Shown here: positions 46,045-53,777 of the stretch, piece by piece | Position numbering within the stretch: position 1 is the stretch's first letter | How the letters are laid out: each line of letters begins with the position of its first letter | Source: Planctomycetota bacterium | GTDB taxonomy: Bacteria > Planctomycetota > Planctomycetia > Pirellulales > Pirellulaceae | Direction: 5' to 3' | Assembly (NCBI GenBank): GCA_027619595.1 | Contig: JAQCHP010000002.1 | Span: forward strand, 1 to 64,000 | DNA length: 64,000 nucleotides | Program-made: the position numbers and the translations under genes | Notes under the pieces: model-generated | The model's input: the letters and a program-made list of their open reading frames with translations, nothing else | Databases searched by the model: none | What the model was told of the DNA's origin: nothing

Positions 46045-47166
46045 ATGGATGTGAAAGATACCGATCGGGCAATCATCCCACGTGCCTGTGGCATCGCGTT
46101 CCAAGTGGTTCAGCAGGAAGCGACGTCGCTTGCTTTGCTAGCGGAATCGTTGAAGTCGGTCGAGTCGCCGTTGTCTCAAGCGTTTGCTCGAAGTGTTCAA
46201 CTGGTGATGAAATGTCACGGGCGTGTTGTGGTAACGGGGATTGGCAAGGCAGGCATCATTGGTCAGAAACTAGCGGCTACCTTGGCTTCAACCGGGACGG
46301 CGTCGCACTTTTTGCATGCTGCGGAAGCAGTGCATGGAGACTTGGGGAGATTTGCGTCGGGGGACTTGGCGATTGTGTTGAGTTATAGCGGGGAGACGGA
46401 GGAAATCGTTCGACTTCTGCCATATTTGAAGCAGGCTGGGATTCCGATTCTTGCGATCACGTCGCGGCAGGAAAGCACGCTGGGGCGAAACAGCCGAGAA
46501 GCATTGTTAATCGGTTCGATTTCCGAGGCATGTTCCTTGGGGCTCGCACCAAGTACCAGCACAACGTGCATGTTGGCCTTGGGCGATGCACTTGCCTTGA
46601 CCGTCAGCGAGATGCGGGGATTTCGGGCCGAAGATTTTGCGCGTTTTCATCCTGGCGGATCGTTGGGGCGAAAATTGTCTGGGGTTGTCGACGTGATGCG
46701 AGAGTGCCGCGAGTGTCGCATGGCGAATGTGAACGAATCCCTGCGGCAATCCTTGGTTCGCGAAAGCCGTCCGGGCCGACGAAGTGGTGCTATTCTCATC
46801 GTCGACGAAGACGGCGTTCTCAGTGGACTTTTTACAGACAGTGATCTGGCGAGACTGTTGGAACGGCAGTGTGATAATTTTCTTGATCACCCAATTCGCG
46901 AAGTAATGACGGAATCACCAATTACAATCCATCAGTCTGCCCGACTGGAGCATGCAGTGAGTCAGATGGTGCGGCAAAAGATTAGCGAACTCCCGGTCGT
47001 GGACGACCGTCACCGTCCGGTCGGGATGTTGGACATCACGGATCTCGTCGGACTCTTTCCGATAGAAGCACTGCCCATTGACTCCCCACAGGCCATCGTA
47101 GTTTCGTTGCCAATTTCGTCCGTCGGCTATTCCCCAGGAACTCAATCGCGGAAGCAAGCGTCATGA
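46045..47166 (+). CDS. kdsD: D-arabinose-5-phosphate isomerase (SIS plus tandem CBS)
   Basis: A 373-residue KpsF/GutQ/KdsD-type enzyme converting D-ribulose 5-phosphate to D-arabinose 5-phosphate, the first step to Kdo. The SIS domain (about 40-190) shows VVVTGIGKAGIIGQKLAATL, HAAEAVHGDLGRFASGDLAI, LSYSGETEEIV and ITSRQESTLGR. Two CBS domains follow; the second contains ISELPVVDDRHRPVGMLDIT. I chose the ATG at 46045; a further in-frame upstream start at 45973 would lie inside the leader hairpin. Its stop overlaps the kdsC start by 4 bp. Confidence 0.94.
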   Translation: MDVKDTDRAIIPRACGIAFQVVQQEATSLALLAESLKSVESPLSQAFARSVQLVMKCHGRVVVTGIGKAGIIGQKLAATLASTGTASHFLHAAEAVHGDLGRFASGDLAIVLSYSGETEEIVRLLPYLKQAGIPILAITSRQESTLGRNSREALLIGSISEACSLGLAPSTSTTCMLALGDALALTVSEMRGFRAEDFARFHPGGSLGRKLSGVVDVMRECRECRMANVNESLRQSLVRESRPGRRSGAILIVDEDGVLSGLFTDSDLARLLERQCDNFLDHPIREVMTESPITIHQSARLEHAVSQMVRQKISELPVVDDRHRPVGMLDITDLVGLFPIEALPIDSPQAIVVSLPISSVGYSPGTQSRKQAS

Positions 47167-47684
47167 AGCTCGATGTAACGTGTAGAAACGTGGAACTGAT
47201 CTTATGTGATGTTGATGGGGTGCTCACCGACGGTGGTATCGTCTTCGACAACCAGGGTATTGAAACGAAGCAATTTCACATACGGGATGGATTGGGAATT
47301 CGCCTCTGGATGCGGGCCGGGTATTCGTTTGGGATAATAACGGGACGCACGTCGCATATCGTAAAAATTCGGGCTGCTGAGCTTGGAATTCAAGAAGTCC
47401 GTCAGGGAACCGAGGTGAAACTTCCGGCGGCCCGAGAATTGTGGGAGAAATTGGGTCTTACCGCTAAGCAAGTCTGTTTCATCGGGGACGATTTACCTGA
47501 TCTGGCAACCGTGCGAGAAGTGGGTCTAGGAATCGCTGTCGGTGACGCCGTCCCGGAAGTCATCCAGTCTGCCGACCATGTAACCCGATTGGCCGGAGGG
47601 CAAGGAGCCGTTCGCGAGGTTGTCGAAATGATACTTAAGGCCAAGCAGCGTTGGACGGAATTGGTGGAGAGGTATTCTTCATGA
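47163..47684 (+). CDS. kdsC: 3-deoxy-D-manno-octulosonate 8-phosphate phosphatase
   Basis: A 173-residue HAD phosphatase of the KdsC type with catalytic DVDGVLTDGG (Asp16 and Asp18), IITGRTSHIV, the Lys-bearing GTEVKLPAARELWEKLG and GDDLPDLATVREVG. It removes phosphate from Kdo-8-phosphate in the cytoplasm. Its start overlaps the kdsD stop and its stop overlaps the next gene by 4 bp, so the three genes are translationally coupled. The absence of a cap domain is normal for KdsC tetramers. Confidence 0.95.
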   Translation: MKLDVTCRNVELILCDVDGVLTDGGIVFDNQGIETKQFHIRDGLGIRLWMRAGYSFGIITGRTSHIVKIRAAELGIQEVRQGTEVKLPAARELWEKLGLTAKQVCFIGDDLPDLATVREVGLGIAVGDAVPEVIQSADHVTRLAGGQGAVREVVEMILKAKQRWTELVERYSS

Positions 47685-50600
47685 ATCGTGGCCGACACCT
47701 GGCGCGACTTGCGCGGTCGACAGCCGATCCCTCGAGGTTCGCTAAGTTCCTGCGTGGATCGCTGGCGAGGACTTTGGGGAGTCTGGTGGTCTGCGTGTTG
47801 GCATACGGTGTTTACGCCCTTACGGTCGTGCCGTGGATCGAGCCTGTGCCTGTCCAGGATGAGTTACCCATTAGCTCTGCGGCGCCGCATACAGCATTGC
47901 CGCTGCGATACCGATCGCTGTTCGCCGCAGATGCTTGGGAACATTCGTCACTGTTTCGCTTGCAGACGCGGGATGGAATTGTACTGGCGCAAAATCTAGA
48001 GCAGTCGGGCAATCGACAGGTCAAAGTTGGGCGTTGTACGCTCGTTTGGGGTGGGTCGGCGGTTGAGGTCGAAGCACCTTTAGTCGTGTTACATGCTCAG
48101 AATGGTGCCGAGTTAACATTTGACGCGGAGACGGACTTACAACTCGGAACCATTGGAAAAATCGAAAATGCTCATCTATTTGGTACTGTACATGTGAAAC
48201 GACTACGCGCCTCGGTGCCTGAGCCCGAGCTAGAAATACAGACCAGCAACGTCCATATGGATTTAACTCGGATCTGGACCGCTGACCAGGTCGATTTCAA
48301 GTGGCGCGGGAGCGAAGGTCGCGGCAGTGGCATGGTGATTAATCTACGGGATCCGCGACTAGATGCTGAAGTTCCCTTGGACGCGCCGGCCGTGAGTCGA
48401 ATTCAATCGTTTGGGCTGGATCGTTTGGAAAAGCTACATATTGAATTGTCAAACAAACCGAGCAGTCTGCGACTTGCATCGAGTGGTACAATTGTGAGGC
48501 CGCATTGGCTCGATGTGCAATGTGCTGGGCGCACGTGGATTGATTTTGAAAAACGAGTGGCAACCCTCGATGACGATGTGCGAGTCCTTCACCATGGTGA
48601 TTATGCTGAAGCGGAGCAATTGCGTAGTGACGCCTTGTCCTTGTATTTCGAGCCAGCAAACACAGCAGCAATGGGACCGGAATCAACCGCTACGACGGTG
48701 AATCAGGTACCTGATTCGACCGCCTTTCCCAAGATGGTGTTAACTCAGTTGGTGGCGGTGGGGCATCCCGTCACCGTGAATGTACCCTCGCAAAAAGCGT
48801 CTGCAAGTTGTGATCGTTTGATCTACCGTCCTGAACAACAAGAGGTAACGCTGGAGCCAGTGTCGGAACCGCAATTTGCTTCGCGGGTCGAGGTGCGACA
48901 CGGAGACAAAGTTCTAAGTTCGCCACGCCGCTTGGTCTACTCTTGGTTGTTACCAGGGAACCGTCCGCAGTCGCTACGAATCGATGGCCCGGGCGAGTAT
49001 CGTGGTGCCCTGCCCCGTTCCGAGAAGGAAAGGAATACGGAAACGAATACTGTTGCCGGTAGCATTCCGCCCGGCGAGCTGATGGCGACCTGGAGTGACG
49101 GCCTGACCTTGGAACGACAAGGTCAAACTCTTCGCGTTACTTTGAATGCGGATGTTACCGAGGGTGTTCGTGTTCCACCGGTCGTCATTCATGGACATGC
49201 TTTGGGCGAACTACAAGCCGAATTCGTGCAGATGGATCTGGAAGAGCGATTGTTGCCGTTGGCCGGTACGTCGCCAGTCAAGCCATTTGCGGGCATGGTC
49301 CCAGTGGCTTTCTTGGCGCAAGGGCAAACATCGTTGCAATCCCCACAGATTGATTTACGTTGCACGACCTTGGAGGGAGAATTTGTTGCCCCGGTTGTTC
49401 AGCCCTCACTTCAGCAAGCGTTAGCAGGTGGATCCGGTTCCCACGAACCGGTCGGTACGCGCCGACGACAGGAGACCCAGCAGATCTCCTCACCACGATC
49501 GCGGCCGGGGCCACGACCGTCAGAACGGTGGGGAGTTCAAGGTCGAACGGTTAAAATTCAATTTGAGTCGTCAGTCGATGGCGGTTGGACTCCGGCTGCA
49601 ACTTCGGTGCACGGCGGTGTTAACGTCCAACGATGGTCTCAGGATACGGAACAGCAAAAAATGCAGTTTCGTGGCGAGCAACTCAGCCTGCGTCGTCCTG
49701 ATGCACCCGACGGCTTTGTGCACTTAGAAGGACAACCGGCACGTGTCGATTGGGGAGAAGCGATACTACAGTCCAACCAAGTTCATGTCCAAAGCGGCAG
49801 TGGAGAGATAAATATTCCAGGCCCTGGTACAGTCTGGTTGCCGCCCAGTTCCGACGCAAAGCTCTTGGCCGACCCGGTTCAAGTCAACTGGGGTGGTAAC
49901 ATGCAGCTGCAGGGTAAAGTTGCCACATTTCGTGGTGGATCTACGGGTGTAACGGCGCTCACTCAAGATGATTTGCGGCGGCTTAGAGCCGATCAATGCA
50001 CCGTCACCCTGGTAGCTCCGATGAAGCCGCCGTTACGACGTCCTAACGTGGGTCGCGGGCAGACTCGCATGGAGGTCGAGAAAATTAAACTGATAGGAAA
50101 TGTTTTCTTAGAAACTCAAACCGTGAAGGGCCAAAAACGTATGGCCCTCGACACCGCTCGACTTCCCGAATTGGAAATCGATCAACGGACCGGTGATTTT
50201 ATCAGTCACGGTCCTGGATGGGTCTCACATGTCGGGATGCATTCCGCACCAAATGGCATGCAATTCACGTCCGCGCAATCGGATGACTCGACGCGTGAGG
50301 AATTGTCGTACCTGCGGGTGAACTACGAAAGGCAGCTCCGCGGGAATCTGCGAAACTCGAAAACAACTTTTGAAGGAAACATTGAGGTAGTCTATGGGCC
50401 TGTGAAAACGTGGGGTGAGGTCTTGGAACGCGATAGCACTGTAGGGTTAGGTCCTCGAGGTGTTTTGATGAATTGCAATCAATTGCAGCTAAATCAAATA
50501 CCAGGCCGATCCGCTAGTACAGAGGCTGCGGTCTGGGAACTTGAAGCCAAAGACAATGTCCAAGTCCACTCCGAAGGGATTTTGGCCGAGGGAGATCGAC

Positions 50601-50818
50601 TCGCATATAACCAAGTTAAGGACACTGTCATCTTGGAGGGGTCGTCTCGGCGGGAAGCCGTTTTGACACGCCGACAAGAAGGCCAAGATCGTCCCAACGT
50701 ATTGAGGGCCCATCGAGTCAATTTTTCTCTTGCCACGAAAAATGTGGAGGTGGAAAGTTTCCGGGAAATCGATCTCGGCCGCATTCCCGACGCATCACTG
50801 CCGGTTGCGCTGCCCTAG
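47681..50818 (+). CDS. Giant LptC/OstA-like periplasmic protein
   Basis: A 1045-residue protein with one N-terminal membrane segment (about 31-50) and a long beta-rich periplasmic part. Several stretches resemble the LptA/OstA pattern of alternating strands, for example RVATLDDDVRVLHHGDYAEA, SCDRLIYRPEQQEVTLEP, TSVHGGVNVQRWSQDTEQQK and GILAEGDRLAYNQVKDTVIL. The N-terminal region after the anchor looks LptC-like. E. coli has kdsD-kdsC-lptC-lptA in this order, so this gene occupies the place of both transport subunits, at about three times their combined length (about 190 plus 185 residues). The ATG overlaps the kdsC stop. A role as a one-piece LPS bridge is inferred. It is not proven by sequence alone. 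Confidence 0.75.
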   Translation: MNRGRHLARLARSTADPSRFAKFLRGSLARTLGSLVVCVLAYGVYALTVVPWIEPVPVQDELPISSAAPHTALPLRYRSLFAADAWEHSSLFRLQTRDGIVLAQNLEQSGNRQVKVGRCTLVWGGSAVEVEAPLVVLHAQNGAELTFDAETDLQLGTIGKIENAHLFGTVHVKRLRASVPEPELEIQTSNVHMDLTRIWTADQVDFKWRGSEGRGSGMVINLRDPRLDAEVPLDAPAVSRIQSFGLDRLEKLHIELSNKPSSLRLASSGTIVRPHWLDVQCAGRTWIDFEKRVATLDDDVRVLHHGDYAEAEQLRSDALSLYFEPANTAAMGPESTATTVNQVPDSTAFPKMVLTQLVAVGHPVTVNVPSQKASASCDRLIYRPEQQEVTLEPVSEPQFASRVEVRHGDKVLSSPRRLVYSWLLPGNRPQSLRIDGPGEYRGALPRSEKERNTETNTVAGSIPPGELMATWSDGLTLERQGQTLRVTLNADVTEGVRVPPVVIHGHALGELQAEFVQMDLEERLLPLAGTSPVKPFAGMVPVAFLAQGQTSLQSPQIDLRCTTLEGEFVAPVVQPSLQQALAGGSGSHEPVGTRRRQETQQISSPRSRPGPRPSERWGVQGRTVKIQFESSVDGGWTPAATSVHGGVNVQRWSQDTEQQKMQFRGEQLSLRRPDAPDGFVHLEGQPARVDWGEAILQSNQVHVQSGSGEINIPGPGTVWLPPSSDAKLLADPVQVNWGGNMQLQGKVATFRGGSTGVTALTQDDLRRLRADQCTVTLVAPMKPPLRRPNVGRGQTRMEVEKIKLIGNVFLETQTVKGQKRMALDTARLPELEIDQRTGDFISHGPGWVSHVGMHSAPNGMQFTSAQSDDSTREELSYLRVNYERQLRGNLRNSKTTFEGNIEVVYGPVKTWGEVLERDSTVGLGPRGVLMNCNQLQLNQIPGRSASTEAAVWELEAKDNVQVHSEGILAEGDRLAYNQVKDTVILEGSSRREAVLTRRQEGQDRPNVLRAHRVNFSLATKNVEVESFREIDLGRIPDASLPVALP

Positions 50819-51144
50819 TCCCTTTGGTAGGAGAATTCGCGCAAGTCGTTTTTCTCGAATTTTCTTGCCACCAATGACGAATAGGTCCAGGTGCGGCTGA
50901 TGGGGCCTTGGGTCGACCCCTGAGTCAGCATGAAATCAGCCAGCAGCTCTTCGGATGAAAATGCTCCGTTCTGTTGGGAAGCTCTGGGCGGTTGTTCATT
51001 CAATACACGTGTTGCAAGCCAATACAATCTCGTTCCGATGGCAGTGCCTGCTGCAATCTGCTTGTATTCCTCCGCTTGGGCGGTCGATTCAACAGATGGA
51101 TGTAGTAAGCTCGTGCAGGAAAGGAATCGAAATGCAGCGTGCAA
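50815..51144 (-). CDS. Doubtful small antisense frame
   Basis: A 109-codon minus-strand frame fills the 313-bp gap between two plus-strand genes and overlaps both slightly. Its sequence has protein-like composition (SSEELLADFMLTQGSTQGPI, VARKFEKNDLREFSYQRD), but I know no family. The only starts near the upstream end are TTG codons without a good ribosome site. It may be a real small gene or a chance frame. Confidence 0.25.
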   Translation of the reverse strand: MHAAFRFLSCTSLLHPSVESTAQAEEYKQIAAGTAIGTRLYWLATRVLNEQPPRASQQNGAFSSEELLADFMLTQGSTQGPISRTWTYSSLVARKFEKNDLREFSYQRD

Positions 51145-53777
51145 GGCAGCTCAAAGCGGGAGTGGCTCGTCCGGCGGAAGCGTCCCGAATATGGCCCTAT
51201 CTTGTGGTGGTGTCGGCGTTTTTCGTGCTGGCAGCTCGGCTGCCTCGAGAATGCTTTCATAGCCGCAGTTTTTCTCGCGTTGCCGCGACATGCCTGTCCG
51301 ATCTTCCCTACGCGCACTGGATGTCTCGATCGTTTTCCGTGGTGGCAATTCGACTCGGCCCGACGTGGGTGAAATCACTCCCTAAGATGGCTGACGAAGT
51401 GTGCCAGCGAACTCCGGTATCGGCGGCTACGAATAGCAACCGTGGGGCATCGATCACAACGACCCAGGCACCCCCGCCCCTAGAAGACGCTCAAGAGCAG
51501 GTCAAGCCTGCCGTATCTCAACAGGACCCGCCTTTCCGCTCGGTGCCTACGTCCGTATCTCGACCGGAGCCCGCCTTGGCGAGCATCCCGGCGGAACTGC
51601 CAAACGAACCTTTGACTGTACCTTTGCCGGATGCAGCGGTGGCAGTGAGCCCAGCACCTGCGAGCCCGCTACCCGCGAAAAAAACACGGGCCGATAAAAC
51701 ACCACCAGAATGGCCCGTATGGGGCCCGATTGGTCAGTTGCAAGCGGGACTTCAGCCTTGGATTCAAACAGGCGAGTTATGGGCTGTCGAGGTTGGTGAC
51801 CTCTTAGAGAAACTATCCGCTCTACCCTGCGCGGCCACTCCGGAAACGAGATTGATGTTGGAACAACTCAGCCGGCGAGTTGCCCGTGAATCGGATGCAT
51901 CCACTGCGATCGAGCGGGGACCCGCCCGCACCAAGATACAGCACGCAATATTTCGCCAAGTTAAGGTGTGGAACTTGCTGCTGCCGACTTTGGCGATGAA
52001 TCAAACAGCGTCCGATGTAAAGGCTGCCGATGTTGACGAGTCCTTGAACACGATCCGGCGAACGGGACAACAGGTGCGTGTCTTTCTCGAGTCGCAAACG
52101 GCCGGCTTGACTTGGTCTGAGTATCTGGAAATCAATAAAATAGCGAATATCGAGGCCGACACGCTGGAATCCCAAGAGTTCGTGCGGAAGATCCTGCGGA
52201 GAATTCACCAGGGGACGCTCAACGAAAGCCAGCGATCTTGGATGCAGCGTCCCCCGTTGCGAGACTTGCATGACGCTTTGAGACAATACAACGCTCGCAG
52301 TCTTCGATCGGAAGACGTTCTGCGGAGTGTGTACGCATTTGAGGCCAAACAGAACTCCCAACAGGGCGAAGAATTGGCTCGAATCATTGATCGCCTGCTG
52401 TTGTCTGACGCGGATGAAATCCAACAGATAGGAGCAGTTTTGGAAGAGCTCTACTGTGGTCCGAATGTGCGACTATCCGTGAGTGAAGTCTTAATGAACA
52501 GACTTCTGCCGGGCGTACAATGGCGAAAGGAACCTGTTCGTGACAATGTACTCGGAGCGGATGTCAGAGGAGACAGTCTGAGTTCAACACAGTTGCGGGT
52601 AGATGTTTTGCCGCAGCGGAATGGAATTCGATTGTTGTTGGAAGCGACCGGAGATGTTCAGTCGGATACTCGTGCTCGAAAATGGCCTGTCGTTCTTGAG
52701 AATCGCGGTCACGCCAATTTTGTCGCGAGAAAAGAAATCTTCTTCGATTCCCATGGTCTGCGGATGGAAGCGGCTCAAGTAGGAGCTCAAGGGACGAATC
52801 GACTCAAGTCCATTTCCTCCGAGTTTGATTCGATTCCATTGGTCGGTTGGATGGTGCGGCAGCTCGCTAAAGAGGAGCATGAACAGCAGAGTTTGTTTAT
52901 TCAGAATCGCATGAAATCGAAGATATCGACGCAAGCTCGGCAGCGCATGGATGCGGAGCTGAGCGAAAAATCAGGCGACATACAAGAGAAACTAAACCAA
53001 CTGGTCGTAGCTCCGGTACGGCGGTTGGATTTGAATCCCAAAATATATGAGCTTGAGTCGACGGACGATCGGATATCGTTCAGTTGTCGGTTGGCGGCTC
53101 CGTGCCAAGTCGGGTCTCACACCGTTCGGCCGCTCGCCTTACGCAATAGCCTGATGAGCCTCCAGGTAAATGAAAGCGTATTTAACAACCTATTTTCCCA
53201 ACTACAACTAGCGGGTTGGCAGGGGGAATTGCCTGATTTCTTGGATCACATCGCGGAGCGACTTGGTACCGAAAAAACGGGGCATAAGCGACGTGCAGAA
53301 CTCAAAGAAGAGTTTCCGGAGGGGATCTTCCTAGCCTTGGACGCCACTTGTCCTGTGCGAGTTGTTTGCCACGATGAACAGTTGGAGTTGCGCATTCATT
53401 TTGCGAAGCTCCATGTGTCGGATCATGAATGGCGGGACTTTGTGGTACGTGGTTTTTATCGGCCCAACCTCGAGCAAAACAACGCGGATCTCGTCCGTGA
53501 TGGCGTGATTCGTTTGTCGGGTCGCAAGCTGGGAATCGGCGATCACGTAGCGTTACGTGCCATTTTCACGAAGGTACTCTCGAAAGACGATCGCTGGCCC
53601 GTCTTTTCTCAGGCGTGGCTGCGGCGCGAAACCGACCCGCAAGTTCGCGTGAATCAGTTTGTGGTACAAGACGGTTGGTTGGGGATTTCGGTGAGTGACG
53701 GCAAACCGCATCAAGAGTTGCCGCCAGTCTGGATGGCCAAGCCACCTCAACCCAATCGACACGAACCCCGTCGATAA
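51132..53777 (+). CDS. Large exported protein of unknown function
   Basis: An 881-residue protein. A hydrophobic N-terminal segment (RIWPYLVVVSAFFVLAARL, about 19-37) is followed by a Pro/Ala-rich low-complexity region (about 110-195). A helical middle and a beta-rich C-terminal part come after, including DVRGDSLSSTQLRVDVLPQR, GIRLLLEATGDVQSDTRARK and LRNSLMSLQVNESVFNNLF. I do not recognise the family. The ATG at 51132 has AAGGA 6 bases ahead; an open frame continues upstream to 50955 but is not protein-like. Coming 314 bp after the Lpt-like gene on the same strand, it may belong to the same envelope unit; this is only positional. Confidence 0.75.
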   Translation: MQRARQLKAGVARPAEASRIWPYLVVVSAFFVLAARLPRECFHSRSFSRVAATCLSDLPYAHWMSRSFSVVAIRLGPTWVKSLPKMADEVCQRTPVSAATNSNRGASITTTQAPPPLEDAQEQVKPAVSQQDPPFRSVPTSVSRPEPALASIPAELPNEPLTVPLPDAAVAVSPAPASPLPAKKTRADKTPPEWPVWGPIGQLQAGLQPWIQTGELWAVEVGDLLEKLSALPCAATPETRLMLEQLSRRVARESDASTAIERGPARTKIQHAIFRQVKVWNLLLPTLAMNQTASDVKAADVDESLNTIRRTGQQVRVFLESQTAGLTWSEYLEINKIANIEADTLESQEFVRKILRRIHQGTLNESQRSWMQRPPLRDLHDALRQYNARSLRSEDVLRSVYAFEAKQNSQQGEELARIIDRLLLSDADEIQQIGAVLEELYCGPNVRLSVSEVLMNRLLPGVQWRKEPVRDNVLGADVRGDSLSSTQLRVDVLPQRNGIRLLLEATGDVQSDTRARKWPVVLENRGHANFVARKEIFFDSHGLRMEAAQVGAQGTNRLKSISSEFDSIPLVGWMVRQLAKEEHEQQSLFIQNRMKSKISTQARQRMDAELSEKSGDIQEKLNQLVVAPVRRLDLNPKIYELESTDDRISFSCRLAAPCQVGSHTVRPLALRNSLMSLQVNESVFNNLFSQLQLAGWQGELPDFLDHIAERLGTEKTGHKRRAELKEEFPEGIFLALDATCPVRVVCHDEQLELRIHFAKLHVSDHEWRDFVVRGFYRPNLEQNNADLVRDGVIRLSGRKLGIGDHVALRAIFTKVLSKDDRWPVFSQAWLRRETDPQVRVNQFVVQDGWLGISVSDGKPHQELPPVWMAKPPQPNRHEPRR

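Follow-up and report, generated by a model that had tools for sequence, protein, structure and literature searches.

In Escherichia coli, LptC (PF06835) is an N-terminal anchor followed by a single jellyroll, about 190 residues in length, and LptA (PF03968; LptH in Pseudomonas) is a separate, soluble and oligomerising protein; both are encoded after the Kdo synthesis genes, in the order kdsD-kdsC-lptC-lptA. Longer forms exist among the OstA-like proteins of Bacteroidota (PF13100), and AsmA-like proteins combine an N-terminal anchor with roughly 1000 residues of beta structure. How many LptA units make up the bridge has been stated to be unknown (PMC10094684). Planctomycetes figure in a list of phyla whose Lpt set is largely reduced (PMC8871954). 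LptD has been reported in them (PMC3422733), and nearly all of the lipid A genes (lpxABCDKL) are essential in Planctopirus limnophila, in a study that also cites LPS in Gemmata (PMC10632474). The elongated MlaD of Veillonella (PMC10665443) is a known case in which a single chain takes the place of several components of a lipid route across the envelope. A search of the open literature, with most subscription papers outside its reach, found neither a natural LptC-LptA fusion nor a planctomycete LptA or LptC.

The locus described here belongs to a planctomycete of the Pirellulaceae (GCA_027619595.1; 5.18 Mb, 96.4% complete) and lies on contig JAQCHP010000002.1 (our C224), of which the first 64,000 nucleotides, the whole stretch of DNA analysed, are called the window. 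The genes concerned, in window coordinates, are the following.

46045..47166, + strand: kdsD-type arabinose-5-phosphate isomerase of Kdo synthesis, with one SIS and two CBS domains (SIS, 6.8e-24; CBS, 1.9e-17; KpsF/GutQ TIGR00393, 1.4e-76)
47163..47684, + strand: kdsC-type Kdo-8-phosphate phosphatase (YrbI/KdsC TIGR01670, 8e-48), with an ATGA overlap with kdsD
47681..50818, + strand: predicted single-chain LptC-LptA bridge protein of 1045 residues (profiles, models, neighbourhood), with an ATGA overlap with kdsC
51132..53777, + strand: protein of 881 residues, of no known family (Pfam and NCBIfam both without a match), with a hydrophobic stretch at the N-terminus

The scores of kdsD against TIGR00393 and of kdsC against TIGR01670 both exceed the family cut-offs. 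A first-pass annotation, made from the letters alone, had described the first three genes as joined by 4-bp overlaps, and the sequence indeed reads ATGA at 47163-47166 (kdsD/kdsC) and again at 47681-47684 (kdsC/long gene). Its central claim, that one chain of 1045 residues fills the slot held in E. coli by LptC plus LptA, is upheld by profiles, fold and neighbourhood, and we assign the long protein a single-chain LptC-LptA identity with high confidence.

Both ends of the long protein match Lpt families. Pfam LptC (PF06835) matches residues 128-226 (E 1.4e-6, 28.5 bits against a cut-off of 21), and LptD_N/LptA (PF03968) matches residues 889-1010 (E 1.7e-5, 25.4 bits against 20.4), whereas the stricter LptC equivalog TIGR04409 gives 32.3 bits, under its cut-off of 38. 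Among 41 full-length homologues, which share 20-27% identity with the long protein, LptD_N is matched at E <=0.01 in 27 and LptC in only three. The matches to PDB chains obtained with the family profile are all to LptA, at E 0.02-0.18, so that as sequence matches these likenesses must be called weak in absolute terms. LptA chains nevertheless match this profile at several places (344-423, 707-740 and 922-988), and comparison of the profile with itself links internal repeats at about 270-430, 430-570, 690-850 and 870-1020, from which we conclude that an LptA-type unit recurs along the chain. A strongly hydrophobic 19-mer stands close to the N-terminus in all 41 homologues. Together with the structural model, these data give the following domain map of the long protein.

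47729..47824, + strand: N-terminal membrane helix, residues 17-48, preceded by an Arg-rich tail (AlphaFold2 helix; hydrophobic 19-mer in homologues)
47954..48448, + strand: LptC-like jellyroll, residues 92-256 (Pfam LptC; pLDDT 87; best PDB matches LptC)
48503..49387, + strand: LptA-like jellyroll stretch, residues 275-569 (Omnitrophota fusion profile, internal repeat, model)
49388..49525, + strand: poorly modelled linker, residues 570-615 (pLDDT <50 at 576-610; 13-115 residues long among homologues)
49526..50242, + strand: LptA-like jellyroll stretch, residues 616-854 (fusion profile, LptA chains at profile 707-740, model)
50300..50770, + strand: C-terminal LptA/LptD_N jellyroll, residues 874-1030 (Pfam LptD_N; 27 of 41 homologues match LptD_N)

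The full-length AlphaFold2 model, built from the alignment of the 41 sequences (mean pLDDT 79, pTM 0.62), places the membrane helix at the N-terminus, followed by 58 strands and little other than beta structure; the anchored, beta-rich character proposed at first reading is thus retained. A Foldseek search with the full model returned the LptA/LptH structures 2r19, 2r1a and 4uu4 at probability 1.00 (TMt 0.63-0.68). LptD chains were also returned, with E-values from 7e-8 to 1e-4 and probabilities up to 1.00, although their global TM is only 0.13-0.20; unrelated beta-rich proteins (beta-propeller and Rhs-type) rank high as well, and their E-values are comparable although the probability is mostly low. 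The N-terminal part was also modelled separately (pLDDT 87), and its four best PDB matches, all at probability 1.00, are LptC structures: 4b54_A (TMt 0.78), 4b54_B (0.71), 3my2 (0.69) and 6mjp_C. Since LptH and LptA rank below these four, the first domain is identified as LptC and not just as any jellyroll. The non-jellyroll fold that would have spoken against the first-pass annotation was thus not encountered.

The long protein accordingly shares with LptC the anchor and ensuing jellyroll, the profile match and the place after kdsC, but does not end after one jellyroll and runs on for some 790 residues. With LptA it shares the PF03968 match, jellyroll units that match crystal structures and the operon place, but its several units are covalently linked in an anchored chain of 1045 residues and do not form a separate soluble periplasmic protein. 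Because LptA-like jellyrolls continue past the LptC domain, the protein is a fusion of LptC and LptA and not a plain LptC.

Further parts of the Lpt export system were located in the same genome, as the first-pass annotation had proposed. They comprise lptB (327.8 bits against a cut-off of 240), LptF/G-like genes and an LptD-like orthologue of 1035 residues on contig C19, for which Pfam gives a weak match or none and which was identified through its relatives' LptD-like proteins (853 and 801 bits). The LptF/LptG-like genes are three instead of two and lie on separate contigs (C173, C179 and C263; loci L054, L056 and L055, respectively); three such matches are also seen in many relatives. A profile search of the genome yielded no other match to LptD_N/LptA, LptC or OstA_2 (PF13100), so that the long gene is the sole LptC-like and LptA-like gene detected. 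The separate lptA or lptC that would have contradicted the first reading was thus not found in the assembly, and at 96.4% completeness one could still sit in a gap.

The long-protein family is widely conserved across the order, being found in 59 of 60 genomes, with homologues of 956-1309 residues. A single-sequence search detected it in 57 of these genomes, the source genome included, and the family profile added two of the remaining three; the profile did not find it in the last (G023), which is 78% complete. The neighbour of the long gene is kdsC in 39 of 40 related loci, or 41 of 42 with the two profile-found loci, and kdsD lies just beyond kdsC or adjoins the long gene in 33 of the 40; in the lone locus without kdsC it is kdsD that adjoins. 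Such frequencies indicate that the association of the three genes is not due to chance. The full-length family also occurs in another family group of the same class, and loci in named genomes, found through kdsD, show the same gene order in Blastopirellula, Pirellula, Rhodopirellula, Gemmata, Gimesia and the like. The 881-residue protein, once suggested as an exported partner of the bridge, does not share this constancy. Its reading frame starts 313 bases past the long gene, and its family, though represented in each of the 60 genomes, mostly lies at a distance from the bridge gene; the two are close here and in G003 and G034 (both with the opposite strand) and 12.5 kb apart in G024. Its place in this locus therefore looks like chance, and the partnership was dropped.

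The slot after kdsD-kdsC is also informative beyond the order. In two control lineages it holds two short genes, namely an LptC of 171 and an LptA of 172 residues, encoded separately, in a UBP3 genome and products of 205 and 179 residues in Alphaproteobacteria. In other planctomycetotes it mostly holds anchored proteins of about 640-1835 residues, those of 641-1110 residues being frequent; a short LptA-like gene takes their place in at least one planctomycetote genome (L125, 168 residues). A group of 698-988 residues aligns to the long protein over nearly its entire length (94.9%, E 4.5e-8), and one of 1687-1835 residues aligns to it over 617-980 (82%, E 1e-5) and to the 698-988-residue group over 844 columns (95.6%). 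The proteins of 1687-1835 residues (at L177, L181, L200 and L209) are nearly twice as long as the protein studied here, with little or no Pfam match. Omnitrophota show the order kdsD-kdsC-X-lptB-like, in which X has 270-298 residues. In the two tested, of 275-298 residues, X carries LptC (1.2e-16, 8.4e-19) and LptA/LptD_N (6.8e-16, 1.7e-10) in one chain.

L178, 2925-3749: Omnitrophota LptC-LptA fusion (Pfam LptC and LptD_N)
L195, 9515-10408: Omnitrophota LptC-LptA fusion (Pfam LptC and LptD_N)

The strength of these statistics makes an LptC-LptA fusion in this slot real, and two stretches of the long protein, 232-411 (E 1.2e-11) and 645-810 (probability 93%), align with the Omnitrophota fusion profile. 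Both kinds of protein thus unite LptC with LptA as a single chain and occupy the same slot, but the Omnitrophota form has one LptC and one LptA unit, a signal-peptide-like N-terminus and lptB directly after it, unlike the planctomycete protein, which is best read as an LptC-LptA fusion extended by more LptA units. Fusion would then have come first and growth afterwards. An open reading frame resembling trigger factor follows lptB in the Omnitrophota loci. The Veillonella MlaD consists of an MCE domain and a beta-barrel, and its family and lipid both differ from those considered here.

Computation supplies the gene order, the single-copy status, the family of both ends, the fold and the wide conservation, and with these in hand we regard it as very probable that the long protein unites, as a natural fusion, LptC and a series of LptA units and would move LPS from LptB2FG to LptD. 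The N-terminal helix would anchor the chain in the inner membrane. Lipopolysaccharide would pass to the LptC domain from an LptB2FG extractor whose genes lie at other places in the genome, and its lipid chains would then travel through a single covalent hydrophobic groove built from about five more LptA-like units, with ATP hydrolysis by LptB as the driving force. At the far end, the groove would deliver to the jellyroll with which LptD begins, at the outer membrane. The C-terminal jellyroll (residues 874-1030) is expected to be the end that faces LptD. LPS as the substrate, docking to LptFG and LptD, and the number of units are all inferred. A single chain would likely form the complete covalent bridge, and it may span the periplasm alone. 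If LptA-like stacking is assumed, with the strands halved between two sheets, 4.8 angstrom allowed for each and a double count for long strands, the estimated groove length is about 14-19 nm, like an ordinary periplasm, a figure that reflects the strand count only, the overall course of the model being unreliable. The suggestion that the length suits a wide periplasm is therefore not sustained, and a pTM of 0.62 and two poorly modelled linkers leave a straight continuous groove unestablished.

The same estimate bears on an alternative that accepts the LptC-LptA fusion but takes the bridge to be incomplete, with an undetected small LptA-like protein or more copies of the chain finishing the span. 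We consider this possible but doubtful: a wide periplasm may exceed the 14-19 nm estimated from the 58 modelled strands, and slot proteins of 1687-1835 residues in some planctomycetotes imply that length is not fixed in the phylum, but the source genome has yielded no second LptA-like gene, and the one short PF03968 frame inspected in a relative was spurious. That candidate, a 221-residue frame in G022, lies inside an ORF of 502 residues and has no match to the bridge profile.

Other readings depart from the fusion in what the chain is or carries. The plan of the model, an N-terminal anchor and some 1000 residues of beta structure, is also that generally attributed to AsmA, so that a phospholipid transporter of the AsmA/TamB/YhdP kind, Lpt-like only in its anchored beta groove, has to be weighed. 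It is very unlikely, since no Pfam match of this type occurs in the long protein (E up to 1) or in the 41 homologues (E up to 0.01), both ends match Lpt families, the best 50 Foldseek matches include LptC, LptA and LptD but not TamB, and the gene has a fixed place after kdsC in a genome otherwise without LptC and LptA. Transport of a glycolipid other than LPS by a true Lpt bridge has a precedent in the non-LPS Lpt apparatus proposed for Treponema pallidum (PMC8407342), but appears improbable here, as the operon is shared with Kdo synthesis genes and nearly all lipid A genes are indispensable in P. limnophila (PMC10632474).

An LptC-LptA fusion of this kind would supply the two components missing from the planctomycete Lpt set and would explain their apparent absence. 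A fused chain would have a fixed number of units and thus a fixed bridge length, which bears on the question of how many LptA units form the bridge. Extended to the phylum, the balance tips slightly towards LPS crossing the periplasm in most Planctomycetota on a single covalent LptC-(LptA)n, with a lineage-specific length of about 640 to 1835 residues set by one gene, in place of an oligomer whose number of units varies. With chains of such different sizes in one phylum, periplasm width could be set against bridge length, and the forms of 1700-1800 residues are worth comparing with envelope images. At four loci (L067, L137, L156 and L159), kdsD is followed directly by the bridge gene without kdsC between them, and in these lineages kdsC seems to have left the operon.
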